Assembly (NCBI GenBank): GCA_036936605.1
Contig: JAUPFV010000005.1
Coordinates: 158,535,195-158,599,194, forward strand
DNA: 64,000 nt
Source of the DNA: Limnanthes douglasii subsp. nivea
Taxonomy: Eukaryota > Streptophyta > Magnoliopsida > Brassicales > Limnanthaceae
Direction: 5' to 3'
Shown: positions 5,658 to 57,406 of the stretch, piece after piece
Position numbering within the stretch: the first letter of the stretch is position 1
How the letters are laid out: each line of letters opens with the position of its first letter
Position numbers and translations under genes: made by a program
The notes under the pieces: generated by a model
What the model was told of the DNA's origin: nothing
What the model saw: only the letters and a program-made list of their open reading frames with translations
The model's database searches: none

Positions 5658-5719
5658 TCTCGCACAGCTTTGCTCTTGGTTCACTACCAAAAGGCCTCAC
5701 ATTAGTTGAGATATTTTAT
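5658..5719 (-). repeat. Dispersed repeat with snRNA-type promoter, copy 1 (transcribed part)
   Basis: On the minus strand this carries a CCTTTTGG box and then the conserved AAGCAAAGCTGTGCG block, also found at 18274-18326 and 23249-23302. Its promoter half lies at 16338-16390, on the other side of the composite MULE. Positions 5711-5719 (ATATTTTAT) are the left copy of the MULE target duplication. Confidence 0.6.
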
Positions 5720-5820
5720 GGGCACGGCTAAAACGAGACCTAATTTCTTTATAGTGAGACCCCAAATCCAAATTTTTTCTGAAAATGTGAAATTACCAAA
5801 TTGCCCCCACATATAAAAAC
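5720..5820 (+). repeat. Left terminal inverted repeat of the composite MULE, with promoter
   Basis: The outer 44 bp match the inverted right end (16294-16337) at about 35 of 44 positions. Both ends contain two copies of a GGTCTC-N4-TA-type motif. Similarity continues more loosely to a TATA box ATATAAAA at 5811-5818. The transposase ATG is at 5981, so the TIR probably supplies the promoter, as in MuDR. Confidence 0.85.
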
Positions 5821-5980
5821 CATAATTTTTCCCACCAACTCATTCTCTTCTTTTCCTCCTCTCTTTCCTACCACCTCTCTTTCCAAAATTCAAAAAAAAC
5901 ACAAACTTTAAAGTTTTCAAACTCCCACCCAACATTTAATAACCATTAATTATTAAAAGTTAAACCCAATTACTCCAAGC

Positions 5981-8900
5981 ATGGATTTAAGCGACTATAA
6001 TGACAATTGGAGCTGCAACGTTGATGATTTCCTTTCGGAGGAGGAGGAGCCGCTTACTGACCACATGGAGGGTATAGATGAGGTAAAAATTAGCTTTTTT
6101 ATGAACAGAACAAATATTTGCATTTTCGTGCCTTCAGATGTACACTTCCACGCAAGAACACGCGTGGAAGATGACACATCTTGGCATGAACATGCGAAGA
6201 TTTGGCAAAATCTTGGCATGAACATGCGACGATTTTGCCAAATCTAAGCATTTTAATGCGAATATTGGGTTTGTCTTGGTTTTACATGCCTTTTTGGTTG
6301 AATATTGGGTTTGTCTTTATTATTTGACTTGTAAATACATGTTTGTGTTTGTGTAGGAACCGGCGGAAGCACCATGTAACATGGCGGATTATAGTCAAAT
6401 ATTTACGACGGATAATTTCTACACCAAGGCGGAATTGATCAAATGGGTTGACAAAGAGAGCAAGAGTATAGGATTTATTGTCGTGGTAGATAAAGATGAC
6501 GATGGTAGTAAAAACGGTAAAACACCGCGGTTATATTTTAAGTGCGAGAGGCACGTTGTTTACAAGCCGAGGCCTAAACCGGGGATTGTGAAGAAACAAC
6601 GAGATTGTTCATCCAAAAAATGCGGATGTCCGTTCATGCTTAGGGGCAATCCGGTGTTAGAAGCACCCGGCTATTGGAAATTGGTAGTTATAATTGGAAA
6701 ACACAACCACCAACCCTTCTTGCATTTGGATGGTCATTCACGGGCCGCGAGGTTAAAGGCGGAAGAGGAGGAGTATGTTCGTAAACTCACAACAATCAGT
6801 TCTCGGCCAAGAGATATATACCATGGATTGAAGTTAAGATACCATCTACAACATGCGGCACAAGCACCAATTGCTTGTTTGGTAAGTTAAAGGAGCACGA
6901 GTACTATGTTTGGGAGCGCACAAACAAAGAAACCGACGAAATCCTAGAATTGTTTTTCGCACATCCCACGAGCATCGATTTGTTGCGCACTTTTCCTCAA
7001 GTGCTTATAATGGATATCACGTACAAGACTACAAGGTATAAATTTCCTTTGCTAGAAATAGTTGGCCAAACTTCGACAAAAAGACCTTTTGTATAGCTTT
7101 TGTTTTTATGAGCTCGGAGAAAGAAGAGAACTACACCTGGGCAATGAGCGTTCTAAGGAGAGTGATGGTGAACAACATGTGCGCATTACCAAATATTATC
7201 GTCACGGATAGGGAGTTGGATTTAATGAACGCTATCGATGAGGTATTCCCGGATGCAACTCATATGTTATGCACTTGGCATATAAATAGGAACATTAGCT
7301 CATACTCTAAGAAAGTTTTGCCCAAAGCGGACATGGGGGAGGAGTTCTTAGAATTTTATGTCGCGGTTCAACATTCGGCGACGATCGAAGTGTATAACAA
7401 AAACCTCTCCGACCTGCACAAAGCCTACGCATATTGTCCTAAGGTTCTCGAGTACTTGATGAAACAATGGATAGACCCTTACGGACACAAATTCCTTAAT
7501 GTCTACACTAACAAGATTAAACATTTGGGCAACCACACTAGCAACCGGTGAGTTATATTATCATATGTATACATTACTATATTTAATTAGTTATTAGACT
7601 TGTAAAAAATTTAAGTTTATGGTTTAGGGCGGAGAGTGCTCACTCTAGTCTAAAACGGGCAATCGGCACAAACCTATGCACGTTTGAGCAATTTTGGGAT
7701 AAAGTTCGTGCGTTGCTTCGCATTCAACACTCTACCATCTTCGAAACGTTTGAACGAAGTTTGTTTCGTCCTAGACAAGCATCTAGGGGAGCTATCTTTC
7801 GCGACATCAAAGGTAAACTTTCATGTACGACCATTCAAATATTAGAAGAAACTATTAGAAAGGCCGGGGATTTGTGGTTCACTCCCGCAAAGTGTTGTTG
7901 TGTAATTAGGACAACACACAATTTACCTTCTGCGTGTGAGTGTGATGTGATCGCGAAAGAAGGTAGGTCGATTCAAACGAGTGAGTGTGATGTTTATTGG
8001 AGTACTTTAGCGATCAAGCCTAGGGAAAACGTTGGTACCGAAGATGAGCTTACAAGAAAGTTATCCTTAATTGATAGTACCATACGCGGTTACGGTCCAC
8101 AAGTGCAAGATCACATAATAAATAGGATGATGCAAATCCTAGATCCCGCTAGAAGCCATGTTTTGGAACCTAAGGAACCGGTTGTCACGAAAGGGCAGAA
8201 AAAAGCCGGTGTCGACAAGTCAACTAAGCGGAACCCATGCGAATGGGAATACGATAGTTTAGGCGCTAGTACTCCCGGCACGATAGGTAGCATGGCCGCG
8301 TCGGCGGTTAAGGAATTTTAGTACGCAAATCGAAGTCCAAAGCTAAAGTGCCACCGAAAAAGGAGAAAGCGACTCGATCTAGAAAATCGAATAAAGGAAA
8401 AGGATTGAGCGCTTATGAGAGTTGTTTTCCCGAGTACTTGCACAACTACATAAGTAGCGTTGAAGACGTTGATTTAGGGCAGTAGCTTTGACGATTAAAG
8501 GCAATGCGGACGCATGGGAGGCAGTGAGAAGGGATTTGATGTATGAACTTTCAAGTCAACGTGATCTCTGGGAAAGGGTTTTTTATGGTGCACAACGTGT
8601 TGACAATCTATTGCGGAGATTGGATTGTTTCAAAATGTACGAGACCGGAACTAGGCACTGGATGATATTACCCGACTATGGGTTGGTGATAGCCACCCGG
8701 TATCAATGTATAGTATACCATGTCTCTCTCCAACTATCATACACGTATCTTCCTTTGCGTGGTGTGCCTCCAAGATCATGTCCTATTGTCGAAGTTGGAA
8801 TTGGTTTCGTACACGGTAATCATTTCGTGAATGTAAGTAAACTAGTACATTCTTGATACTTAGTTTTCATTTGATCAAAAAATCCGCGACGTATTTAATG

Positions 8901-9113
8901 TTTCTATATAATTGAAATTTTCAGATTGTATTAGACGGACCGTTGCCGGATATATACCCAACGTGGTATGCGTTCCGCACTTGCGCTGAAGTTACAAATT
9001 GGGCCATACCAATAGGCGAACGTCTCAACAAGTATCACCAAATCAAACCAGCACAACCTCCAACATTAAACGATGGGGATGATGAATACTACGATTTGAC
9101 CGGGGATGCATAA
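5981..9113 (+). pseudogene. MULE transposase with FAR1-like zinc domain and C-terminal OTU domain, frame-broken
   Basis: The product would cut and join the element's TIRs. Exons inferred from splice signals and reading phase are 5981-6082, 6357-7547, 7628-8832 and 8925-9113. The N-terminal region has a FAR1/WRKY-type zinc pattern (FKCER, KKCGCPF, KHNH; 6535-6710). The MULE catalytic core follows: first Asp in IMDITYKT (7013-7015), second Asp in VTDRE (7207-7209), and the C-x2-H motif CTWH near 7272. The last part is an OTU-type cysteine-protease fold (about 8470-9050) ending in the GFVHGNHFVNV motif. Breaks: frameshifts near 6870, 7080 (A-run) and 8310-8325, and a small deletion near 8472 that removes the Gly-Asn-Cys-Gly segment holding the OTU catalytic Cys. 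The start fits a short acidic first exon behind the TIR promoter. Confidence 0.9.
6140..6244. repeat. Hairpin cluster in transposase intron 1
   Basis: A stem CTTCCACGC/GCGTGGAAG (about 6145-6170) is followed by two copies of a 20-bp direct repeat beginning ATCTTGGCATGAACATGCGA. These contain the inverted pair GATTTGGCAAAATC (6199-6212) and GATTTTGCCAAATC (6231-6244). Related stems occur in the leader intron of the PMD gene at the other end. Confidence 0.75.
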
Positions 9114-9303
9114 TGCGATGTTGTATTTTTATATTTTGTGTTACTTGTTTTTTTTAATCCTTTCGAAACACATTTCGCTACCTCCGACTACTAGACTTAT
9201 ATTGTTTTGCTTGATAATAATTATGACTTTGACTTATGGTTTGTAGATGTGCCAAAAAAAAATTGTTTTTTAAACGGACGTATGATTTTTTTTCCGGAAC
9301 AGA
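9114..9303. other. Transposase 3' region, no gene seen
   Basis: AT-rich sequence after the transposase stop, presumably 3' UTR. No reading frame was supported. Confidence 0.5.
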
Positions 9304-9740
9304 GCCTTAATAGGTACCCTTTTGCCATGATTTTTGGTTGAAGGCTAATTTTTTTTTTGGATTTTCGACATCAAATGTTGTTAAAACTATGTTTTGAAAC
9401 CATTGGCAACCACAAATGGGCAAAAAAAAATCATAAGTGCCCGAAAACCCTAATTTTTTTTCGGAACAGAGCCTTTATCAGCACACGCAAACGTGTGCAT
9501 GTACAATTACACGCAAAAAAGTGCGTGTACTTGTACATGCGCACGTTTTCGTGTGCCAAAAAGGGTTCTGTTCCGAAAAAAAATAGGGTTTTGGGGCACT
9601 TATGATTTTTTTTGGCCCATTCATGGTTGCCAATGGTTTCAAAACATAGTTTTAACAACATTTGAGGTCGAAAATCCAAAAAAAAATATTAATTTTTGGC
9701 CTTCAACCAAAAATCATGACAAAAGGGTACCTATTAAGGC
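9304..9740. repeat. 437-bp near-perfect palindrome (foldback)
   Basis: The left arm starts GCCTTAATAGGTACC (9304-9318) and the right arm ends GGTACCTATTAAGGC. The two arms match over about 215 bp each, centred near 9522. The tip holds smaller stems such as GCACACG/CGTGTGC and TACACGC/GCGTGTA. Similar short frames appear on both strands because of the palindrome and are not genes. It could be a foldback element nested between the transposase and gene A, or a hairpin-RNA source. No flanking duplication was confirmed. Confidence 0.88.
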
Positions 9741-9946
9741 CTAAATGTTGAATAAAAAAATTAAGTCTACAGAAACTCAAGCCTCAAGGGCTAATCATTC
9801 AAAAACTAAAAGAACTATTACGAGCATTAGTTTAAACAAAAAAACAACAAGCTCAACATTAGCTTGTGCAAAAAAAACATGGAATCGAGATATCATGTAC
9901 TGCCTAACATATACAGCCAAGGAATAAAAGCGGGAGATATGATAGA
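9741..9946. other. Spacer, no supported gene
   Basis: AT-rich spacer with one 60-codon Lys/Ser/Thr-rich open frame (9745-9927) that has no recognisable domain. It is treated as chance. Confidence 0.4.
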
Positions 9947-10042
9947 GGTCTCGTTATAACGAGACATCTAATAATATAAGTTAGGCTATAATGAAACCCC
10001 TACTATTGCCCGCCCACCAAAATTGACTCGTCCCCTATAAAT
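9947..10042 (+). promoter_or_regulatory. TIR-like module 1 and TATA box upstream of gene A
   Basis: A perfect 18-bp palindrome GTCTCGTTATAACGAGAC (9948-9965) is followed by a GGCTATAATGAAACCCC motif, the same GTCTC/CTATAAT vocabulary as the element's TIRs. A TATA box CTATAAATA lies at 10034-10042, about 85 nt before the gene A ATG. The motifs are seen directly; the promoter role is inferred. Confidence 0.65.
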
Positions 10043-10124
10043 ATGACATAAAATCAAGAAATCATAATACACTTGCCAAACATTGAGCATTCAACATAAA
10101 TATAAAACTCGTTAACGTTTACAT

Positions 10125-10553
10125 ATGGAGTTTACGGCGGACGAAGACTACCACATGCTTCAAGCTGTGAAGATTGCCCGCCAGATACTAGGGGAAGATA
10201 CCAGCGATGCGTTTTTTGAGCGTGTCCTATGTACGATGTACATGGGCTACGACCGTTTGGGTACAAGAGGTATCGTTATGCGTACTCGTGAGCAGATCAA
10301 ACGCAGATATATTTTTTGTCAGCCAATACAGCATTTGTGCTTCTTGCCATCGTTAATTAAGCAAGAAGCTGTTACCGTCTGGAACCTGAGCTCAATAGAC
10401 TACATCACCAGGGATATGGTAGCATTTCTGGAGGATAAGATTATTGCAAGGGGGGAATTGATGATGTTGAATACAAACTTCGATACGAATAACCGTTCCA
10501 CTGATGTTATTTCAACTTGTTATTTTCGTATCGGTTGTTATTTGAACTTGTGA
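10125..10553 (+). CDS. Small SANT/trihelix-like protein A (142 aa)
   Basis: Unnamed protein, paralogous to gene C (about 60% identical over 105 residues) and more distantly to B and D. The pattern is an acidic/aromatic start (MEFTADEDYHML), a LGED-SDAFFE helix, a VLC-MY helix, and a basic REQIKRRY helix near residue 80. This spacing resembles Myb/SANT or trihelix DNA-binding folds, so it may bind element DNA or assist the transposase; that is inference. The C half ends in a conserved DYITRDMV helix. Relative to gene C, the last 20 or so residues look like read-through past a lost stop. Genes A and B are convergent, with stops about 90 bp apart. The frame is intact. Confidence 0.7.
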   Translation: MEFTADEDYHMLQAVKIARQILGEDTSDAFFERVLCTMYMGYDRLGTRGIVMRTREQIKRRYIFCQPIQHLCFLPSLIKQEAVTVWNLSSIDYITRDMVAFLEDKIIARGELMMLNTNFDTNNRSTDVISTCYFRIGCYLNL

Positions 10554-10643
10554 TTTTTCTTTCCAGTTTTTGTTTGAAGTTTTTATTTCGTTAGTTGTTG
10601 TTATTTGAACTTGTGATTTTTCATTTCAGTATTTGTTTGAAGT

Positions 10644-11099
10644 TTATGGAGTCGGATAGTTCAGTCCATACTCGAACGAATATTCACCTTCATCAGTACT
10701 TCCTTCGGGAGTTGAATACGTTTCAACGGCGCTGGCAATTGCGTCATCCATTTCTTGCTCCCTTTGCCGCGTCGCATGTGACACCATCTCCTGCGTAACT
10801 GTACCTTGGGATCCCATGTTAAATAATTTTTGGACATGTAAACGGGTCTCGTAATCCTATGACTCAATCTGTATAGTCATTGGCTTAAGATAAGCTAGCC
10901 TCTCGAACACTTCTTCGCGTCCGCGTGGTCGGGGCATTAAGCATCCTGGACACGATGCCTCCCTACCGTGGTTGAAGAACATCCTGCACAAAACCGCATC
11001 GATGAAACCAGGAATCTCCTCTTGCATCGTACATCTGACGAAGTCAAATGCGACCAGGAGGCTTGCATCTTCGTTCACGTTCCAGTCTGAATCACCCAT
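10644..11099 (-). pseudogene. Small SANT/trihelix-like protein B (about 151 codons), one in-frame TAG
   Basis: Diverged member of the A-D family. It starts MGDSDWNVNEDASLL and has a VLCRMFFNHGRE helix and a basic REEVFERLAYLK helix aligned with the REQIKRRY region of A. A TAG at 10857-10859 interrupts the frame after MTIQIES. The same frame then stays open for 71 codons, with a plausible acidic tail, and ends in TAA at 10644-10646. The continuous frame on both sides makes one nonsense mutation the simplest reading. A TATA box (TATTTATAG on the plus strand, 11141-11149) lies about 45 nt upstream, and TIR-like module 2 lies upstream of that. Confidence 0.65.
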
Positions 11100-11214
11100 T
11101 GTTGTAACTTAAGATGTTTTGTTTCATAGTCAGATTATAGTATTTATAGACTCGAAGTCGGTGTGCCAATTCTTAAATAATTTGTGGGAAACGAGGTTTT
11201 TGTTCCCGCGTTAA

Positions 11215-11402
11215 TTAATTAGCGGGAAAGTCTGGGCGGGAAAGTTGTAAAGGGGGGTGTGTTTGGCGGTAATTTTTTCACGTGTTTGGTTATAGCGAGA
11301 CGTCTAATAATGGAAGTTACGCTATAATGAGAACCCTATTATTGCACTGCTGCATTTGTGTACTTTTTTAAATATTAGGTGTCGCACAATCATTCGTCAA
11401 CA
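11215..11402 (-). promoter_or_regulatory. TIR-like module 2 with G-box and E2F-like sites, upstream of gene B
   Basis: The module (11261-11402) is nearly identical to module 3 (12074-12217) in the same orientation. It contains CACGTG (11279-11284), TTATAGCGAGAC and CGCTATAATGAG. Two exact GCGGGAAA sites (11222-11229 and 11236-11243), the reverse complement of the plant E2F consensus TTTCCCGC, lie between the module and gene B. Confidence 0.55.
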
Positions 11403-11613
11403 ATGTGATTGAATTAATGTAAACCTTGGGTTGTTTTAAGAATGATACATTGGATACATTGGATACATAAAAATGGGCACAAAATAAAATGGGCAGTCAA
11501 ATAAGAAACAGTAGTACATGGTAAATGTAAAATACAAAAATTTCAAACATTAACTTAAACAAACAGTACGGAAACTCCAAGATGCAAACAATTAAAAACA
11601 TAAGTAATGCCCA
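11403..11613. other. Spacer downstream of gene C
   Basis: AT-rich sequence with a duplicated TTGGATACA near 11450; presumably 3' UTR of gene C. No gene seen. Confidence 0.4.
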
Positions 11614-11988
11614 TTAGTCGAAGTCGTATCGAAAGTTATCATCAGAGTCAGTCCCCTCTTCCCTTTCAGTAATCCTATTCTGAAGATACAGTACCATGTC
11701 CCTAGTGATGTAGTCTACCACCGTCATGTTCCATACGGCGGCCGCTTCTTGCTTAATTTTAAATGGTAGAAACAACAAACGATCCATTGGTTTGCAATAA
11801 ATGTACCTTTGTTTGATTTGTTCACGGTTACGCACAACAAAACCTTTCGTTCCTAAGGGGCCGTAGTTATAGTACATCTTACACAAGACTAGCTCGAAAA
11901 ACGCATCACTACTATCTTCACCCAACTCACGCAGGACAAGTTTCACTGCCTCGAACAAATGGTAGTTTTCATGCGGGGTAAACTCCAT
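11614..11988 (-). CDS. Small SANT/trihelix-like protein C (124 aa)
   Basis: The best-preserved member of the family, intact from ATG to TAG. It starts MEFTPHENYHLFEAVK and has a LGEDSSDAFFE segment, a VLCKMYYNYG helix and a basic REQIKQRY helix, then a hydrophobic LLFLPFKIKQE stretch, DYITRDMVLYL, and an acidic tail ending FRYDFD. The family is not recognised by name; a SANT/Myb-like DNA-binding role is inferred from the acidic-aromatic start and the basic third helix. A TATA-like ACTTATAAG lies at 12027-12035, about 40 nt before the ATG, with module 3 about 100 nt upstream. Intact small genes beside a broken transposase may mean recent selection, or just small target size. Confidence 0.75.
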   Translation of the reverse strand: MEFTPHENYHLFEAVKLVLRELGEDSSDAFFELVLCKMYYNYGPLGTKGFVVRNREQIKQRYIYCKPMDRLLFLPFKIKQEAAAVWNMTVVDYITRDMVLYLQNRITEREEGTDSDDNFRYDFD

Positions 11989-12042
11989 TATTGCACTGTT
12001 TATGTTCGAGGAGTGCTAAGCATCCACTTATAAGCTCGTGGA

Positions 12043-12217
12043 TGTTTGGGCGGGAAGTGCATTTAACGCGAGTGTTTTTAGCGGCAATTTTTTCACGTGT
12101 CTCGTTATAGCGAGACGTCTAATAATGGAAGTTACGCTATAATGAGACCCCTATTATTGCACTGCTACATTTGTGTACTTTTTTAAATATTAGGTGTCGC
12201 ACAATCATTCGTCAACA
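12043..12217. promoter_or_regulatory. TIR-like module 3 between divergent genes C and D
   Basis: Near copy of module 2 in direct orientation (12074-12217 against 11261-11402). It carries CACGTG at 12095-12100, GTCTCGTTATAGCGAGAC (12099-12116) and CGCTATAATGAGACCCC. It lies between genes C (-) and D (+), so it could serve both. A GGGCGGGAA motif near 12050 is one base off the E2F consensus. Its promoter role is inferred from position. Confidence 0.6.
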
Positions 12218-12326
12218 TGGATTACGCTATCCTTATCTTACAAGTGTTTATAATTGATACAAAAAGTGGTACAAAAAGACGTTTTATAGGCAGTAACAAT
12301 TATAGCAAATATATCAATTGCAAAAA

Positions 12327-12690
12327 ATGTGCCCATGGACTGAGTTGGAAGATCAATATCTGATGATGGCATCAGCTAAAGTTGGTAACCTTAACATGAT
12401 AAAGGGGGGGTAATAAGTACTGGTGGGAATTGCTATGCAAGATGTACTTCCTATATGGAAGGGATGGTGTTCAACCGCCAAGAATTTCTAGGCGTGTCGA
12501 TGAGGTGAAAGCTAGGTGGTCTAGCTTAGTCACATTCCGTCAACATCCAGTTTCTAGCCTCACCGAATTGGAACGTCGTGTTGCGTGTAACCGGTTCAAC
12601 TGTCAAGCCACAGATTTTTTAACAGAGGACCAACTGGATTCGGTCCGCGCTGTCATTATTGACATCCGCCTAGACGAAATGCGTGACTAA
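12327..12690 (+). pseudogene. Small SANT/trihelix-like protein D, frameshifted
   Basis: Fourth family member. The start at 12327 gives MCPWTELEDQYLMMA, a typical SANT-like W-x3-ED opening. The frame shifts at a G-run near 12402-12412. It then continues as WWELLCKMYFLYGRDG (from about 12423) and a basic EVKARWSSL helix aligned with REQIKRRY of A, and ends at TAA 12688-12690. This is the member that most resembles Myb/SANT-like accessory proteins of plant DNA transposons, because of its W residues. One frameshift is seen and no other lesion. Confidence 0.65.
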
Positions 12691-13069
12691 CAAGAATGCG
12701 AAAGATCTATGGAGTTTATGTTTTACAATATGTTTACGTTATCTTTGATATTTTCGTTTGAGTTTATGTTTAAGTGTCTGATTCGGTTTATGTTTGAGTT
12801 TGTGTTGTTGTTCGTGTTTACAAAAACGTTCGGGTTTATGTTTCAGTTTATGTTGCATTTGTTTTGCATTCTGATACCTACCCCTAAACTTGGAGTTTTA
12901 AAGTTGGAGTTTGAACAAACATTCGAAAGTTATATCACTAAAATGTAACAAAATAACATAACACATAATTAAACAACGACCCAATACCACATCACAAAAA
13001 ATAAACCGGTCAAAAGTAAACAACACATAAAAAGTCTTAAACTGTCAACACAAAAGACATAAATGATAA
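12691..13069. other. Spacer between convergent genes D and PMD
   Basis: Contains repeated GTTTATGTTT-type runs (12710-12860) that open a hydrophobic chance frame, then AT-rich sequence. No supported gene; probably the 3' UTRs of both neighbours. Confidence 0.5.
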
Positions 13070-15629
13070 TCAATCTCTGTACTCGTGAGCTATACGGTAT
13101 ATCTCTTCCAAAGGCTCCCGAAGGTCCTCCAAACTAATGCCGGGGTGGCTACGGTCGTACTCATCTATATCCACTATGCGCGAAGTCAGCTCGTGCAGTG
13201 TGGTCGCATGTGTGTGTGGTGAAGGGTTCACCCATATCTCCGCATCATCTCGGTGAGCCTCTGGATCAGATATGATGTACCACAAGTTCTTCGTAACCCA
13301 TGAAGAGTACATCAAAGTGGTACCATCCTCCTGACCAGGAATAAACTTCGCACCCTTCAGACTCGGGTGAATACAGTGTGACTCCCAGTTCTCCCAACTG
13401 AATGCATCCCAGAGGTAGAGGGTGTTCGCACGATGAACCCTACTAGAACCGGTAAGAACAGGACGCAATGGACCAGGAACCTGTATTTAAAAAAAAAATT
13501 CTAAACTATGTAGCACACATGCGCAATACAAACAATATTAATATTTCGAGTTACAAAATATTACCTGCTGGATGTGACCCAATTGTCTAGCCACCCGTAG
13601 CGGATAGTACGCCTCGACAATGTCCGACGCCTTCAGCGTCGCATCTATCCAAGCTATATCAGCGTGACCTCGAGCATCCCGCATGGCCACATACGGCATG
13701 AATGATACCTATAAAATATTAACAAACCATTTATCATTAGCAACTTATATTATATATACAATAATTGAAATGAAACTGATTATAACTTACATCGTGCTCG
13801 GTGAAGCTAGCTAGACAAACTCTAACACCGTCTCGAGACTCCTGGCTTTGTCGAAACTTCGGAGATGCATGCAGGCACAAAGTAGGATGTGCGATACTAT
13901 ACCTCGGGTACTGATGAACTGAAAATGACCGGAAATGGTCGTAAATCCACGTCTCTAACAAGGCCAAAAAACCAGATATACCCGAAGTAACGTGTAGGTA
14001 ACCTCTGCCTAGCTGGTAGTAGAGTTGCGCGAGTATCATCTGTTCCCAGTTATACCTCGCCGAGCTACTATAATCGTCAATGAACTGTAAGTAGTCGAGG
14101 CTAATGTTGTTGCTCGACTTGTTGGCCAAAATGGTACAGCCAAAGAAGTGCAACAAGTAGCCCCTGGTAGCTCAGCGGCCATCCGCATCAGTGATGTCAT
14201 CGTCGTAATACTGATCGGTGCAGAATCTCCTCTTCAGCCATGCAAGGCGAACATGCCTCTTACCGCCGCCTTTGTTCTCCTTTATCTCCGCCTCAAGCTC
14301 CCTAGCGCTGCACCCAAGTAAGTGAGCGTATGCCGCAGTACGCTCATCAGCAGTAGGGTACTCATATATCTCACAGTTGACACCCACAACTGAGAGCCCC
14401 GTGATCATATGGACATCATCCAGGGTGACGGTCATCTCCCCGAAAGAGAAATAGAAAGTGTTCGTCTCAGGATGCCATCTCTCCAAAAATGCCTCAATCA
14501 AGTGGACATTAGTAGACCACTTACCCAAGGCCTCAACCAAGGGCCAGAAACACGTGCTCTTAACTTGCGCAAGTACCCGTGTCTGGCGGACTTTCAAGTC
14601 CCAGGAACTATGAGTATGGTACATCGCATAACAGCGCAACTGTTGCCGGGCCTGCATGCATAAAAAACATACAATATATATAAACATATATGCAATCTAA
14701 AATTTAAGATAATACAATAACCAACATGTTCAATATATATGCAGTATAACAACTAAGATAAACCAATAACCAATAACCAACAAATACAATGCAGTAGTGA
14801 GTGTTAAAAATTAAAACCTAAATTCATTCTAACATATAAATTCATTCTAACCTAAACTAATAAAATTTATAACACAAACCAATACCAAATCCAATGCAGT
14901 AACATATAAATTCATTCTAACCTAAACTAATAAAATTTATAACACAAACCAATATCAAATCCAATGCAGTAACATATAAATTCATTCTAACCTAAACTAA
15001 TTAAATTTATAACACAAACCAATACTAAATCCAATGCAGTAACATATAAATTCATTCTAACCTAAACTAATTAAATTTATAACACAAACCAATACCAAAT
15101 CCAATGCAGTAACATATAAATTCATTCTAACCTAAACTAATTAAATTTATAACAAATTCAATTCAGTAGACAGTGTTAAAAATTAAAACCTAAATTCATT
15201 CTAACATATAAATTAATTCTAACCTAACCTAAACTAATAAAATTTATAACACAAACCAATAACAAATCCAATGTAGTAACATATAAATTCATTCTAACCT
15301 AAACTAATAAAATTTCTAACACAAACCAATAATAATAACTTTAAAAAGTAAATTAAAACTAAAAAACTTACATCGTCTTTGAAGATGCTATAAGCCTCGT
15401 GCTCTCTGTAGGCATGGAACGTCAAGTATAGGTCTACGACGTGAGAATTATATCTATGGAAGCGCTTGTCCGTAGATATGCGACGCTGGACTGGGCGGTC
15501 GGCGACCTGTAAGGTCCCTCTAACACGGACGCGGACGCTCCGAGACGTCTCAGCACGTGCCAGCTCCTCTGTCTCATGACCCGACTCATAGTCTGTATCG
15601 GTAACGAGAGGACGTGGGCGAGGAGGCAT
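13070..15629 (-). pseudogene. Plant mobile domain (PMD, aminotransferase-like) protein, one in-frame TGA
   Basis: Resembles the MAIN/MAIL-type plant mobile domain family, which is known both as host genes and as transposon cargo. Coding exons from splice sites and phase are 15629-15372, 14651-13791, 13708-13565 and 13480-13070. A leader intron (16123-15631) precedes the ATG, which follows a GTGCAG acceptor. The PMD core is in exon 2: WHPETNTFYFSFGEMTVTLDD, then MITGLSVVG, and a RGYLLHFFG segment. Exon 1 is Arg/Glu rich. TGA at 14172-14174 breaks exon 2; CGA to TGA is a likely origin. All other junctions keep frame. The gene points inward from the right TIR, which has a TATA box about 600 bp upstream. 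A DNA or chromatin role is inferred from the family. Confidence 0.85.
14831..15330. repeat. 70-bp tandem repeat array in PMD intron 1
   Basis: Units begin AACATATAAATTCATTC at 14831, 14901, 14971, 15041 and 15111, so the period is exactly 70 bp. Degenerate extra copies follow near 15190-15330. The units are AT-rich and non-coding. Confidence 0.9.
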
Positions 15630-15687
15630 ACTGCACAAGATAAAACCAAACAATTAGACGAATTCAAAGTGTAAAAAAATTGAAAAA

Positions 15688-15878
15688 TCGTGGATTTTGC
15701 GAAAATTCGCAATTTTGGTCGTGGATTTGGCAAATCCACGAAAAAAATTGCGAATTTTCGCCAAAATCCACGACCCGTGGATTCGTTATTTCCACGCAAG
15801 TTCGTGCGTGGAAATACCGGATGCACGCAATTTTGTACGTGCATCCGGTATTTCTACGCACGAACTTGCGTGGAAATA
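15688..15878. repeat. Double hairpin cluster in PMD leader intron
   Basis: Two adjacent imperfect palindromes. The first (15688-15772) has arms with CGTGGATTTTGCG and GCGAATTTTCGCC and an inner stem CGTGGATTT/AAATCCACG (15720-15740). The second (15789-15878) has arms of about 40 bp starting ATTTCCACGCAAG. It shares the CCACGCAAG and GATTTGGCAAA words with the hairpins in transposase intron 1. Confidence 0.85.
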
Positions 15879-16239
15879 CCAAACAATAGAAACATAAGCC
15901 CCGAACCTAAATGTGCCAAAATCGACCCCAAATCTCTAAACCAACACCCCTAAATGGTCCTAATCTCCTAACTAACAACATACATGCAGTTAAAATCCAA
16001 CAAAACAACCCCAATTACATAAAAATTTAATTTTTTGACCCGAATGTTAAACTCTAGATATCTCTTAAAAAAACGATGGAAAATGAAAAAAAAAAATTAC
16101 ATCATGAAGTATAGAATCCTTACCTTAACAGCTTGCTGGAGTTGGATTTCAAAAAAAATCGATTAAAAAACGTGGGTTTTTGGAGGTAGAGAGAGCTAGG
16201 GTTTTTTGAGGTAGAAAGAGTAACAAATTTTGAGTTTTG

Positions 16240-16337
16240 TTATTTATATGAATGGCATTTTTGTAATTATTGGGGGTCTCGTTATAGCCAAGCCGGGTTT
16301 CACTATAAAGAAAACGGGTCTCATTTTAGCATAGCCC
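16240..16337 (-). repeat. Right terminal inverted repeat of the composite MULE, with promoter
   Basis: Inverted partner of 5720-5820. It includes CACTATAAAGAAAACGGG and GGTCTCGTTATAGCC, plus a TATA box ATATAAATAA (minus strand, about 16243-16252) that would drive the PMD gene. The right target duplication ATATTTTAT follows at 16338-16346. Confidence 0.85.
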
Positions 16338-16390
16338 ATATTTTATTCACTTATATATTGTAAGTACTTTTTCAGTCTAAAAATGTGGGA
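16338..16390 (-). promoter_or_regulatory. snRNA-type promoter half of dispersed repeat copy 1
   Basis: Read on the minus strand: TCCCACAT (16390-16383), then about 25 bp, then TATATAAG (16357-16350). TCCCACAT plus TATA at this spacing resembles the USE/TATA pair of plant Pol III-type snRNA promoters. Its transcribed half is at 5658-5694, beyond the inserted MULE. Confidence 0.5.
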
Positions 16391-48941: not shown

Positions 48942-49358
48942 TCATTTCTCTGGGTTTAATTTCAAGTGGATGGCTTCTAAGTTAGAAAAAGTTTCTTGAA
49001 CATCAGGATTTTTGTGTTCTTCCTCCTCGAGGCTCTTCACCATCATATCATCTATATATACTTCCATATTTCTGCCAATTTGGCTAGCGAATATTTTATT
49101 TACTAACCGCTGATAAGTAGCCCTAACATTTTTCAACCCAAACGACATCACCGTATAGCAATGAAGCCCTCTGTCAGTGATAAAGGTAGTATAATATTGA
49201 TCGTTTGGATCCACTTGTATGTGATTGTATCCTGAAAAGGCATCCATGAAGAATAACAACTTGTTTCCTAATTTGGAATCTACCAACTGATCTATCTGAG
49301 GTACTGAAAAAGGATCTGTATGGCATGCTCTGTTAAGATCAGTGAAATCAATACACAT
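48942..49358 (-). pseudogene. Tat 2 gypsy reverse transcriptase core
   Basis: An open 138-codon piece with MCIDFTDLNRAC, FFMDAFSGYNHIQV, TFITDRGLHCYTVMSFGLKN and catalytic YIDDMMVKS. The spacing is typical of Tat/Retand-type RT. It is a fragment of a broken pol, not an independent gene. Confidence 0.88.
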
Positions 49359-50155
49359 GCGTCATTTTCTATTTGTTTTCTTGACTAAAACAGGGTTAGT
49401 TGTCCACAAAGGGTATTGAGATTCTTTAATATGGCACATCGTGGTTAAACGATCAACTTCTTGTACTATCACATCAGCATTGTTTTGGAAAAGGTCCTTA
49501 TCTCTGTACTAGCGATATAGAATTAGATCAGACTGACAATTTGTGGCAGATTACTTCGGCTGGTACCCCAGTTACATCATCATTGCACCATGCAAACACA
49601 TGTAGATTGTTAGACAAGAAAGACAATAACTTTTGTTTCAAAATCAATGGTAATTTAGTGCCAATCTTAACATTTTTTCCTTCTTCTAAGCAATGGATTT
49701 CAACTTCTTCTATGGGTATTATAACACTAGGATCCTCATTTGTATCATCTATTTCATTCTCATCCGTGGAAGGCTTCAGTAGTTCTTATTCCTTGTTAGC
49801 CTTGGCTGCCTCCAATGACTTTGAGGCAAGAGCTGTTACATAGCATTCTCTAGCCACTTTCTGACTGTTTCGGCCAACACCTACATGTGCACCCACATCA
49901 TATTTTAAACATTGATGGACATTAGAGGCCACAACATGCATCCTAGAAAGCTAAGATCTTCCAAATATAGCATTGTAGGATGTTGGGCAGTCGACCACAA
50001 GGAATAATACCTTCATGTTTTTTTAAAAAGTCTTCTACCCAATAGTACTTCATTTTCAAACTTACCAATGACATCACCCGAACTTCTCGTAAACCCCATA
50101 ATAGTTTTGTTTGATCGCTGAATAACCGAGAAATTTTTAATTTGCCTATAAGTAT

Positions 50156-50760
50156 TCAGATTAGAACGTTTGCCGAACTACCAGTGTCAATCAAGATTCG
50201 ACGTATGCCATTACCCTCAATTGATACCCCTATTACCACAACATATTCATGTGGCCCCGCAATATCTCTTAAGTCATCTTCATCAAAGACTATGAAAGGA
50301 TCTGGGGTTTGGTACAGATGTGTGGACATTATTCCTTCCAACTGAGTAGTCAAGCTGTTGATATGCTCTTTTCTTGAACAACTTAAGTGTGTTGTCATAA
50401 TGTCTCCCCCAAATATGGTTAATGACTCAAAAAACTTCACCAGATCGGAAAATATAGCAGATTTATCCACTATTACCCCCACTTGGTTCCGATCTGGGTC
50501 AAGATCAAGGTATTCGGAGTCCACGTCAAATATTTCAACAATCATCATGGCATCTTCCTGGTTGGATGTCCCTAAGGTTGTTTAAAAAATCGTTCGCGGA
50601 GCATTGGCGTTGGATTGTGTATTATCTGGTCTGCTTCCCCCTTTGTTTTTAACAAAAACGCCTAATTTTCCACTCTGAATGAGATTTTTCACTTCTTGCT
50701 TCAATGCTATAAAATCATGCGTGTCATGACCCACATCATTATGGTATTTGCAAAAACAGG
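50156..50760 (-). pseudogene. Tat 2 gypsy gag end and aspartic protease
   Basis: A zinc-knuckle remnant lies near 50720-50760 (CFCKYHNDVGHDTHD, final Cys lost). It is followed by an open frame (50156-50548) ending in the aspartic protease active site LIDTGSSANVLI. The fragment is otherwise broken. Confidence 0.8.
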
Positions 50761-51292
50761 TACTTAGGGTTTCTCAAGGGGACTGTAGTGGGGATGGCCT
50801 TCTAAAGTGCATATCATTTTTAGTCTTGTCATAAATTGTCGTTACACTCTCTCCCATGGACCATTTTTACTTCTAACTTGTTGATTTTGATTGGATTGAT
50901 TCTGCTTGGGCCAATGTGATCCATGTCCGGTTTCCTTTGATTTTTAACCGGATTGAGTTGTTGCTTGCGGAATTGACACTATAGTGGTGGATCTGTTCTG
51001 ATGAGACACTCTAGAGTTCTTAGTTTTTTCAACAGTAATTTACTTTCTAACTTGATTTAACAGCCCCTAAAAGTCATTGATTTTTTCCGAGTTACTGAGT
51101 CGGCCAAATTACCGGGATTCAAGCCTTGTCTTAAAGAGGCGATTGCTACTTGTTCAAAACAATCATCTTATCCATTCTTCGTGTTCACAAACCTACTGAT
51201 ATATTCCTTCAAAGATTCGGTTGGCTCTTGGGAACAATGAATAGTCGTTGGGGGACTGTTACCTCTGGAATGCTACTCATAATATGTCAAAA

Positions 51293-52127
51293 TTATTTAT
51301 AGACCCCTTGGGGGAGACTGTTGTACCACTTAACGACACTTCCTTTAAAGGTCTGTGAAAAGGCTCGGCATAGCAGCTTGTCATCATCATCAAAATTCAT
51401 CATACATTTTTTAAATTGCTCGAGATGATTGCCTGGATCTTTGCTTCCATCATACTTATCCATATTGGAACTGTCAAATCTCTTGGGAAGATGGTCGGAG
51501 AGTATTTTTGAAGACAAGGGTGGTTGTCTCCAATTTTGGCTACGGCTAAATATTGTATCTTCATTGGGAGTAGCAAAAATACCCAGTTCAGATTAAAAGG
51601 CAAATGGATCGATCAGGTGAGCCTTTTATTTTTCCTTGATACTTTTTAATTTTGCCCTGTCTATCCTTTTTTCTTGAATGATTCTTGGTTAGCCTTAATT
51701 TCTTCTTTAGATGGTCTTCATCACTGTTGGATGGGAATAATTCTTCATGGTCTGAATCATTTGATGAACTATTAGAAGACTCTGATGTCATGCTCACAAC
51801 TCGTTTAGACGAATGTGTTTTCTTAGAGCTGACATGAGTCTTTATTGATTGCTCATTTTCACCAGGCTCATCAGTAGGGTGGAGTGCAGATGCACCAAAC
51901 TTCTCTTTTATTCCCTTTTCAGCTTGTTTATGAGTCCTTAAAGCCTCAATCTCAGCCCTTAGCTGATCATTTTCATCTTGCATGGATTGTTTTTTATCAT
52001 CATTGTGAATAACATGAGACACAGTAGTGTTCTCATTATTCTCTCTCACACCTTCAACCACTGGAGGTGGAACGTCTTGTACATTAGGATCCATCTCCTT
52101 TAATGACATCCAAGCTGCTTTATTCAC
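51293..52127 (-). pseudogene. Tat 2 gypsy gag, N-terminal and capsid part
   Basis: 52127-51588 begins MNKAAWMSLKEMD and has a short coiled coil (ENDQLRAEIEALRTHK), then Ser/Lys-rich sequence. 51517-51293 holds the retrotransposon gag core with MDKYDGSKDPGNHLEQF and AFSQTFKGSVVKWYNSLP. A frameshift separates the two near 51590. Confidence 0.85.
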
Positions 52128-52162
52128 TGGTTTTGAATCTAAAATTCAGGCACCATCGCCTC

Positions 52163-53419: not shown

Positions 53420-53790
53420 ACACATAATTGTAGTAAAAGTAATATCCTTCGTTAAATTGATATCTTTCGACATATGAACAGTTTTTTAATGCATCTGCTT
53501 GTTCAAGGAGGAGCTCCTCCACATAACATAGCATATCATTTGTAATGAAATCAATAGTTTTTAAATAAAAATGTGTTGAACACCTCTGTTTAAATTTTTA
53601 CAAAAGGTTGAACACTCGAACTATTTTTCTGATTTCAAATAATTGAACCTGGTATAGACTTCTTCACGAATTCGTAGAGACAAAGAAGGAGCTCATTCAT
53701 ATCTGCACATGTAGTATATTGTATATATAACTTCATCGAGAAAAAACATCGATAGTCTCATCCACCTTATTCTCGTAACATATTTTACGG
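53420..53790 (-). pseudogene. Fifth SANT/trihelix-like small gene remnant
   Basis: On the minus strand a broken frame encodes DEVIYTIYYMCRYE, then RIREEVYTRFNYLK. The latter aligns with REEVFERLAYLK of gene B and REQIKRRYIF of gene A. Further on, in another frame, is DFITNDMLCYVEELL, aligning with DYITRDMVLYL of gene C. At least two stops and one frameshift are present. It lies just downstream of the second MULE transposase, so the small gene family is linked to MULE transposases twice in this window. Confidence 0.6.
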
Positions 53791-54164
53791 TTTGCAACAA
53801 GTGGTTGTCTTTTTAAGTACAATTTCATATCAGAAAAATTTATACGTTTGATTAGTTATGTTATTTGTTAGATGAAAAAATATGCTAGGCTGGAATAGAT
53901 ATTTTAGATAAAAGTGAATTATAAAGTTGGTGACACTTTATAATTGACCGAAATATTTAAGAAGGGAGAAAATGTAATTCTTTTGAATCGCAGTAGCAGT
54001 AAAGAGATATTCAACAGTCAGTTCAACTGTGAGCTAATAGGTTCCAATTGTAACTACAACTTGCACATGCACTATAATAGGTATCTATAAGTTAACCAGT
54101 AGTTAAGGTTAAAAAATATCAACCAATTAGACAGTTTTCTTGCTACATAAACAAACTTTATTGA
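53791..54164. other. AT-rich, small hairpin only
   Basis: No gene. A perfect 11-bp stem AATTATAAAGT/ACTTTATAATT lies at 53917-53945. The left hAT target duplication ACAGTAAG (54165-54172) follows. Confidence 0.6.
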
Positions 54165-54947: not shown

Positions 54948-57115
54948 TCATTCATCTCCAGCTTCGTCTTCTTCGTAAGTAAAATCTTCGTCTTCGTCCT
55001 CACTTGATTCACCTTCAGCTTCGTTTTCTTCCGCAATTTCTTGTTCAAGTGTATCTTCGTAATCATCCGGATAATCTTCGAAGATGTCGTCTATGTTCAC
55101 TTCGTCTCTAAACTCTCTGTCTTGCATCCTTTTATCCGCCGTTGTCCAATCCTTAATTGCCACAAGCACTCCAAGTGCTTTGCCCGTCAATCTTGTTCTC
55201 TTAGTCGTGTATTGCAACCTCGCTTGGCTGAAAGAACACTCACTTGCAACTGTAGACGTAGGTATAACATAAATCTCTTTAACAATCCTGCAAATAATAG
55301 GAAACTCTTCAATTTTGGTACCCCACCATCTTATGATATCTTCAATACCTTGGTTTGGATAATTCGTAAAATCAAACCTAGTACTCAAATATCTAGACAA
55401 CTCATTATCAGATTGAGGGGTTTCTGTAAATTCATTGCTTCGTAACATTGCCAATTGAACATAGTTAGTAGAACATCTCCCTCTACCCCTATTGTTACTA
55501 CTCCTTACATTTGTAGATGTATTTGATCTATATCTTGCAGCATACTTATCATAGATATTATACAAACATTCATATATACCGGTAATATACCCTTCAGGGT
55601 CAACTGGTTCCTTCGGTGGTTTAGTTATAGAAAACCGTACAGATCGATAAAAGCATCTAACTAGCAATTCAAATTTATCTTTTCGTGAAAAAGGATCTAA
55701 AAGGCAAGCAAATGAATAACTATCAGGAATTGGATGAAAATACTTTGTGAACTTATATTCCATTTCGGGCACCATGTCTACGCATACAAAATTTGATCTA
55801 AATTCATTCATATGCATGGCAAGATTAATAATCGAGAAAAGGGCCAAATGAGCATTAGGTTGATTTTGTGAAGAAAAGGTTAGAGTGTTTTCTTTAAAAA
55901 GTCTTAAAAATCTTAACATGTGTGCACAATATGTCCAATGATCGGTTTCAATTGGTGTTTTACGATAAGATGCATTATAAAACGTCATAATCTCTTCTTT
56001 AAAAACATGCGCACGTGCAAGCATTGTGTAAGTAGAATTCCATCTAGTTTCGACATCTAATATAAGTTTCTTATTTTTTTTCCCATTTGAAGTAACAAGT
56101 GTTTTAAAAGCTCTTTTTTTAACAGCGGATGTCGAGCAAAATAGGACCCCATTTTTTATAGGGGCAATATAATCACCGAGAACCTTACGTATTCCTTCTT
56201 TCGCAATTAATTGAAGTACGTGGCATAAACATTTGGTGTGAAACAATTTTGGAAAAGGAGGATTGCAATCTTCTATAAGCAATTTTATAGTAGTAATATT
56301 AGAAGATGCATTATCCAACGAAATAGACATAATCTTGTTTTTAATGCCATAAACATTCATGCATTCAATCATACTCTCCCTAATTATTTGTGCGTTATGC
56401 TTCCCAATTGACTCAAACCATATAATTATCCGTTGGAGGACCCATTCGGCATCCATCCAATGAAGGGTAACACATATCATATCAAAATGATTAAAAGTAG
56501 CTATGTCACTAGTAATCGAAACATTCCATGGCAAAGTCAGCATAGTTTGAATAATGCCTTTTTTCTTTTTAAATAATATTTAAAGGCTAACGATTTTAAA
56601 GAGCTACGTGGAATGCGTTTTGCATGTGGGTTTACCCCAGCTTGCATCCAATTTTCGTATCTCCAAGAATCCCCAAAACTAAATGGTTGTAAATTACCGA
56701 CTGCATAAATCATTGTTTCTTCCCTATACGTATCGTGGTTAAACTCAAAAGGAAGACCTGTTTGAGGGTTCATGCAAACATTAGTTGGGTTAGGTTTTGC
56801 AGGATCATATACTCCATGTTTCAATAAATGTTTTACCATAGTGCTAGTGCCCATATTTCTATTTCCACTTACGTGAAGATAACATTTTTTGCACACGTTA
56901 CAAATACTAGAATAACCATCTTCTGATAGAGTATAGTGTTTCCAAATCCAAGATGTTTTCTTACGAGATCTCGACCCACCACTAGTACTTCCACCACCAC
57001 TTTCGTGGGAGGAGAGTGTGTCAACGTGAGGGAAGTCTGTAGAAAATTCCTCTATGGTATTGAGATCCACATTAGAGGGTTGGTTTACCCCAGTATTTCT
57101 ACGTTTTGAATTCAT
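54948..57115 (-). pseudogene. hAT transposase (BED zinc finger, RNase H-like, dimerisation domain), one frameshift
   Basis: The protein would bind the TIR and subterminal repeats and excise the element. The N part (57115-56537) has a BED finger with CNVC and KHLLKH near residues 70-100. The catalytic part (56543-54948, 531 codons) has SITSDIATF (first Asp), SISLDNASSN (second Asp), HTKCLCHVLQL, and a C-terminal hAT dimerisation region with IIRWWGTK and STVASECSFSQ, where the Glu is retained. The tail is acidic. The two frames are joined only by a one-base shift in an A-run (about 56557-56570 on the plus strand, T-run). No other lesion was seen. The promoter TATA is CTATAAATAG, minus strand, at about 57411-57421, with a 300-nt leader. 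Confidence 0.92.
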
Positions 57116-57406
57116 TTTAAAACTAATAACAATTTTTTTTAAATATGCAATAAAATACTAATGGGAACTAATTAATATTGCAAATAATAAAATCTAAATT
57201 TAGACTAATAACAAGATATAACAACTAAATTTAGACTAATAACAACTAAGAAACAATTTGCGGAAAAACAAAAATCAAACAATTTCGAAAGTAGGAGTAG
57301 AATATGTAAAATAAGTAATTATAGTTTTCTAGAATTTTTCGAAGAAGTAGATAGATTTAGAGAGAATTAGAGAGTTGTTTGAGAGGTGTGAGTATTGAGT
57401 TGGGGT

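Follow-up and report, generated by a model that had tools for sequence, protein, structure and literature searches.

The window analysed here, 64,000 nucleotides of Limnanthes douglasii subsp. nivea (assembly GCA_036936605.1, contig JAUPFV010000005.1, positions 158,535,195 to 158,599,194 of the forward strand), contains a 10.6-kb Mutator-like element (MULE) at 5720-16337. We consider the chances a little better than even that this is a degenerate, high-copy MULE of three modules, in which a constrained cassette of small genes has been exchanged between MULE families and encodes regulators that read motif arrays in the element. The modules would be (i) a FAR1/MULE transposase with an ovarian-tumour (OTU)-like cysteine-protease tail, (ii) the cassette itself, made up of the four paralogues g1-g4, small genes predicted to be Myb/SANT-like, and (iii) a PMD gene in antisense orientation. 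The features of the element are as follows, the motif being the 11-bp TATARYGAGAC and family B another MULE family.

5711..5719: left target-site duplication ATATTTTAT, from the sequence and from empty sites
5720..5762, plus strand: left terminal inverted repeat (TIR), with the motif at 5729 (one mismatch) and 5750 (exact)
5981..9113, plus strand: transposase-OTU gene, broken here, with FAR1 (PF03101) and MULE (PF10551) domains, and OTU-like motifs in other copies; exons at approximately 5981-6082, 6357-7547, 7628-8832 and 8925-9113, junctions read by eye
9304..9740: internal fold-back, arms of 45 and 111 nt, 95-96% complementary, also found in sister copies
9948..9997, minus, plus and plus strands: motif cluster upstream of g1, the third site with one mismatch; left edge of a high-identity block
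10125..10484, plus strand: g1, 124 aa in family B, with a frame-shifted tail to 10553 in the window
10647..11099, minus strand: g2, 151 aa in other copies, with one in-frame TAG in the window
11291..11333: motif cluster upstream of g2
11617..11988, minus strand: g3, 124 aa, intact
12099..12148, minus, plus and plus strands: motif cluster in the spacer from which g3 and g4 diverge
12327..12690, plus strand: g4, 120 aa in other copies, frame-shifted in the window
13070..15629, minus strand (antisense): PMD gene (PF10536) of several exons, broken (stop near 14171)
16276..16337, minus strand: right TIR, with motifs at 16276 (exact), 16297 and 16318 (one mismatch each)
16338..16346: right target-site duplication ATATTTTAT, from the sequence

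The ends of the element form a 46-bp inverted pair (5717-5762 and 16295-16340, 83% complementary), and a perfect 9-bp duplication, read directly from the sequence, flanks 5720-16337; TIRs together with a target duplication of 8-11 bp characterise the MULE superfamily. When both flanks were rejoined with one copy of the duplication (junction at query base 140/141), the joined sequence aligned over the junction to other copies of the target repeat in 53 of the 56 listed rows, at 82-92% identity (40 scored of 1,736 candidates). Of the three remaining rows, one was the left flank of the window itself and two began to the right of the junction. The target of the window element is a repeat whose other copies stand empty. 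Many equal-identity copies of this repeat among the listed matches lie at G000 C223:178.5-179.9 Mb, apparently as an array.

The genome (1.78 Gb) was searched with 271 bp of left-end DNA, and the best 40 of 996 candidates, self included, had 91-100% identity (91-96% for the 39 non-self matches). Ten of these 39 loci were fetched. The right TIR adjoined a 9-bp repeat of the copy's own left flank in nine of the ten (five perfect, four with one mismatch), each at a different target. One locus, L021, retains only 516 bp of the left end and was dropped; pairwise identity among the window and the other nine copies, which we call family A, was 94.9-97.0% with gaps excluded. At a plant substitution rate of 6.5e-9 per site and year, a pairwise difference of 3-5% corresponds to roughly 2-4 million years. 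Gene order was common to the sister copies wherever genes persisted; L011 is without part of the transposase, g1 and g2. Because copies with their own duplications and empty sites were both found, the element is one insertion belonging to a family that was amplified as a unit. The first-pass annotation had described a single insertion with inverted ends and a perfect 9-bp duplication, and had named as checks further copies with the same gene order, their empty sites, and full-length copies elsewhere delimited by the TIRs and a duplication; all of this was confirmed. The many copies in the genome also bear out its distinct lineage. Its 'composite MULE carrying six genes' held for the six genes and failed for 'composite', since the six were amplified as one unit and not assembled in a single copy.

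The window copy has decayed. Stretches of 26, 32, 19, 234 and 16 bp are missing from it that are present in eight or nine of the nine others, and the 19-bp gap removes the OTU DGNCGF motif. No gene of the window copy other than g3 is clearly intact; the sister copies keep genes open. Among the window and nine copies, full-length frames were found in 5/10 for g1, 5/10 for g2, 8/10 for g3 and 4/10 for g4, taking as full length 122-142 aa for g1 (some with a shifted tail), 151 aa for g2, 124 aa for g3 and 119-127 aa for g4. The 142-aa g1 frame of the window ends in such a shifted tail, while g1 has 122 aa in L023 and 124 aa in family B. Another locus, L032, carries an element with a 3.37-kb internal tandem duplication holding g1, a piece of g2, and g3.

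The first-pass annotation had named a transposase-OTU gene, four paralogous small genes and a PMD gene. Pfam matches identified FAR1, MULE and PMD, the OTU-like part was recognised only by motif, and the small genes are paralogous. PF10551, the MULE-type DDE transposase, matched with E values of 1.4e-17 in the window and 1.1e-25 in a copy. Transposase exon 3 is without a Pfam match, and a CGC...PCAC pattern, possibly of a SWIM-type zinc finger, was read in it by eye. The OTU-like tail showed DGNCGF...GNHF in sister copies and had no Pfam match; its best PDB sequence matches were to OTUD5, and were weak (E 0.083) with the DGxC aligned. PMD matches to PF10536 had E values of 1.2e-17 and 1.6e-15, and the majority frame of this gene across family A has one stop. 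With its transposase present, the element is not a Pack-MULE, the type that lacks a transposase and carries host gene fragments.

The small genes are numerous in the genome. The best 150 matches of g3 (of 10,203 candidates) had 86-100% identity, those of g4 (of 5,357) 79-100%, and those of g2 (of 6,706) 82-100%. A divergent g4 match lay 630-741 bp away in 66 of the 150 listed g3 matches, and a same-strand g4 lay within 1.5 kb in none of them. At G000 C334:226.4-228.3 Mb at least 11 g2 matches, all on the minus strand, form a local element cluster within 1.9 Mb, and the g3 match at G000 C112:341690826-341691197 lies within a 222-aa open frame that may encode a fusion or an extended protein. A decayed stretch of the window itself (53630-53812, minus strand), which may be the fossil of a distant small gene, can be aligned in one register with g1, with g3 and with a short part of g2 (best E 0.13, 29% over 56 aa).

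Proteins of g2 and g3 are 29-33% alike. No Pfam family matched g1-g4, and for eight small-gene sequences of families A-C no Myb family appeared at E values up to 10; a PDB profile search of the small genes gave no Myb family, and Foldseek nothing significant. Predicted structures, obtained for two of the small genes, resemble those of Myb/SANT DNA-binding domains, and the four probably encode DNA-binding proteins.

Weaker g4 matches (79-80% identity, four loci) led to further MULE families. The element of family B (L035+L037+L031+L038+L036) spans 11.15 kb between 9-mers that are the same at 7/9 bases, with the order transposase, g1 (plus), g3 (minus), g4 (plus), g2 (plus) and PMD (minus), that is, with g2 downstream of g4. 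Two relatives of B, namely B2 (L030+L039) and E (L040), are incomplete, with sequence too short to place g2. Family C (L033+L029+L034) is a 10.3-kb element with the perfect duplication TAAATTTTT and only g3 and g4 as small genes; it probably lost g1. The first-pass annotation had written of the element's own small family; the small genes are not private to it, since the same four occur in another order in family B, and two of them in family C.

The small genes are under constraint between families, with ratios of nonsynonymous to synonymous divergence (dN/dS) of 0.2-0.5. Majority frames within family A, an analysis that left out transposase exon 3, were uninterrupted in all four. Between families dN/dS was 0.23 for g1 (A-B), 0.22 for g3 (A-C) and 0.39 for g4 (A-B), with bootstrap intervals below 1; it was 0.47 (interval to 0.95) for g4 in A-B2 and 0.53 (to 1.20) in B-B2, a comparison within one family. 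For g2 (A-B) dN was 0.16 and dS 0.56. Small-gene singletons within family A were near neutral (0.68-0.86), as expected of dead copies, and shared variants gave 0.33-0.5 for g2-g4 but 1.18 for g1, with few counts. The paralogues g1 and g3 compared with each other gave 0.16-0.27. Their mutual dS (0.9-1.6) exceeds the between-family dS of g1 or g3 (0.28-0.53), so the pair predates the spread between families and a recent duplication as its source can be rejected.

The motif TATARYGAGAC had eight exact matches in the 64 kb, all inside the element (0.16 expected; 0/100 shuffles reached 8). These lie at both ends, upstream of g1, upstream of g2, and in the spacer from which g3 and g4 diverge. Allowing one mismatch raised the total to 16, 13 inside the element and three outside. 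The window and nine copies together held 88 exact matches (200 shuffled motifs: median 0, at most 10), with spacings mostly of 7 bp (minus/plus), 32 bp (plus/plus) and 21 bp, and some of 16 bp. The promoter region of g2 (11250-11402) duplicates that of g3/g4 (12065-12217) at 93% identity. In family E the motifs between g3 and g4 are arranged as in A, and those before g1 as in B. The g3/g4 promoter of family C (L029 2163-2601) is without TATARYGAGAC and has five 27-bp tandem repeats with a TGAGAATGAGCGGGA core; no convincing motif common to the ends and promoter of family C was found. The 437-bp fold-back between the transposase and g1 is a possible source of small interfering RNA, or a nested miniature inverted-repeat element.

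Divergence between families was compared as pS, the fraction of differing silent sites. For the transposase pS was 0.52-0.59 between A and B, B2 or E and 0.77-0.84 between A and C, and for the PMD gene it was 0.81 (A-B) and 0.77 (A-C); across the same family pairs, pS of the small genes was 0.18-0.40. Bootstrap intervals of small genes and transposase were separate, except for g2 and g3 in A-B. Twelve windows of up to 70 codons along the transposase gave 0.43-0.70 (A-B, A-E) and 0.63-0.90 (A-C), and its best-conserved stretch, with 83% DNA identity, still had a pS of 0.43-0.48. GC content at third codon positions (GC3) was alike in small genes and transposase, which leaves codon bias unsupported as a cause of the low small-gene dS. 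The 338-bp spacer between g3 and g4 was 87% identical in A-E, 86% in A-B2 and 78% in A-B (reversed control, 41%). Regions beyond the cassette were near chance: a transposase intron at 59-62% (control 64), the left end at 53% (control 49) and the g4 3' flank at 53-61% (control 60, fewer columns). The high-identity block has a sharp left edge at about 9,950-10,000, where the g1 motif cluster lies in non-coding sequence; its right edge is at about 12,700, just past the g4 stop. From the depth of these silent-site differences and the spacer identity, and not from branching, the comparison suggests that the small genes and, in family B and not in C, their shared promoter are younger than the transposase and PMD genes, and that MULE families exchanged the cassette (about 9,950 to 12,700) at a time when their transposases were already divergent.

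A switch of template to another MULE during the repair of an excision gap could produce such an exchange. The g1-g4 proteins may bind the motif arrays, perhaps as dimers, a possibility raised by the 7, 21 and 32 bp spacings of the sites. In this way they would maintain activity of the element's promoters and ends, as transactivators, as sequence-specific anti-silencing factors, or both, and the OTU-like and PMD proteins may be further parts that interact with the host. More specifically, and only tentatively since we hold it to be rather doubtful in full, the cassette may be a portable four-gene Myb/SANT control module with a bidirectional promoter that passes between MULE lineages by recombination, reads the end and promoter motif, and gives activation or escape from silencing independently of transposase history.

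Alternatively, the small genes could have been inherited vertically, evolving slowly even at silent sites and with a constrained promoter, and no exchange need have occurred; we judge this unlikely, though it carries real weight. Several observations count against exchange. Transposase and small-gene trees both have the form ((B,B2,E),A,C), so a branching conflict that could serve as proof was not found. In A-B the intervals of g2 and g3 extend up to 0.51 and 0.52, and that of the transposase down to 0.48; the g3-g4 spacer of family C is only 54% identical; and a right edge just past the g4 stop is expected alone for any coding end. The spacer holds the motif and could itself be constrained, and within family A (A-A2) small-gene pS is slightly below that of the transposase (0.03-0.07 compared with 0.06-0.08). 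Slow silent sites are harder to reconcile with family B, where small-gene pS (B-B2, B-E: 0.14-0.28) equals or exceeds that of the transposase (0.11-0.17), though this is largely decay after insertion. The similar GC3, the sharp left edge inside non-coding DNA, the identity of the whole 338-bp spacer, and a between-family silent divergence that differs about two- to four-fold also argue for exchange over vertical inheritance.

A different question is what the proteins do. Their part could lie in transposition itself (end binding, nuclear import or transposase assembly), in the manner of the Myb-like helper of PIF/Harbinger elements, and not in expression or silencing, as the Myb/SANT-like structural model and the motif at both ends would allow. 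The same motif, however, clusters upstream of internal genes, where an end-binding helper has no obvious use for it, and four paralogues in our judgement exceed the need for a helper; we think this role rather improbable. That the small genes are captured host gene fragments, functionless passengers of the Pack-MULE type, appears very improbable. MULEs are described as often capturing gene pieces (PMC6431247), but the uninterrupted majority frames, the low dN/dS and the presence of the genes in separate families in rearranged order speak against it. As for several adjacent or nested insertions merely resembling one element, which TIR-like motifs and a fold-back in its interior might suggest, the whole unit recurs at other loci with its own duplications and the empty sites refute this for the window copy, so that its probability is negligible.

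Table 1 of a MULE survey gives one or two open reading frames (ORFs) for every group with a stated number (PMC6446971). This agrees with the first-pass statement that typical MULEs carry one or two genes of their own, and makes the gene set of the window larger than usual. By the same survey, MUDR, MUDRAVI2 and MULE-Solanaceae_1 resemble the window element in the 9-bp duplication, the TIRs, the MULE transposase and often an antisense PMD, MULE-Solanaceae_1 also having an 'unknown ORF', but are tabulated with one or two ORFs and no four-gene cassette (PMC6446971). PMD, often antisense, is listed there in plant MULEs, and in this respect the window element is ordinary. Jittery types share FAR1 at the transposase N terminus, but are listed with one ORF and without PMD or small genes; an OTU gene is listed only for MuDR-6_HM (PMC6446971).

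Arabidopsis VANDAL elements are described as MULEs with extra genes and short motif arrays in their non-coding parts (PMC5735166, PMC10398659), to which the arrays seen here are analogous, with a different motif. VANC induces loss of methylation and binds, within the non-coding DNA of its own VANDAL element, a motif of 9 bases; the target repeats differ between families. By the same descriptions VANDAL TIRs are degenerate, and Hi/VANDAL21 has one VANC (VANA, VANB, VANC), not four paralogues. By analogy, VANC would be the nearest model for the proposed role of the cassette. For the PMDs carried by MULEs, a role in anti-silencing is a speculation of Ikeda et al. (PMC5418596). No description of a four-gene Myb-like cassette in a MULE was found in the one open-access library searched, where absence proves little. 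PIF/Harbinger elements encode a Myb/SANT-like helper protein beside the transposase, but differ in transposase family and in their 3-bp duplication, compared with 9 bp here. Few extra MULE genes have a known role in the sources cited, VANC being the main case, and the surveyed MULEs carry one or two genes. If our proposal is true, DNA transposons trade control modules in much the way that phages trade functional blocks, and the cassette would offer a second system for studying how silencing is escaped in a sequence-specific manner; the motif, the promoters and the proteins are all small and open to direct testing.

Elsewhere in the window, ORFs of 543 and 206 aa at 54948-57157 (minus strand) resemble by eye a hAT transposase with a BED-type finger, and fragments at 48942-52145 (minus strand) resemble, also by eye, a long terminal repeat retrotransposon polyprotein.

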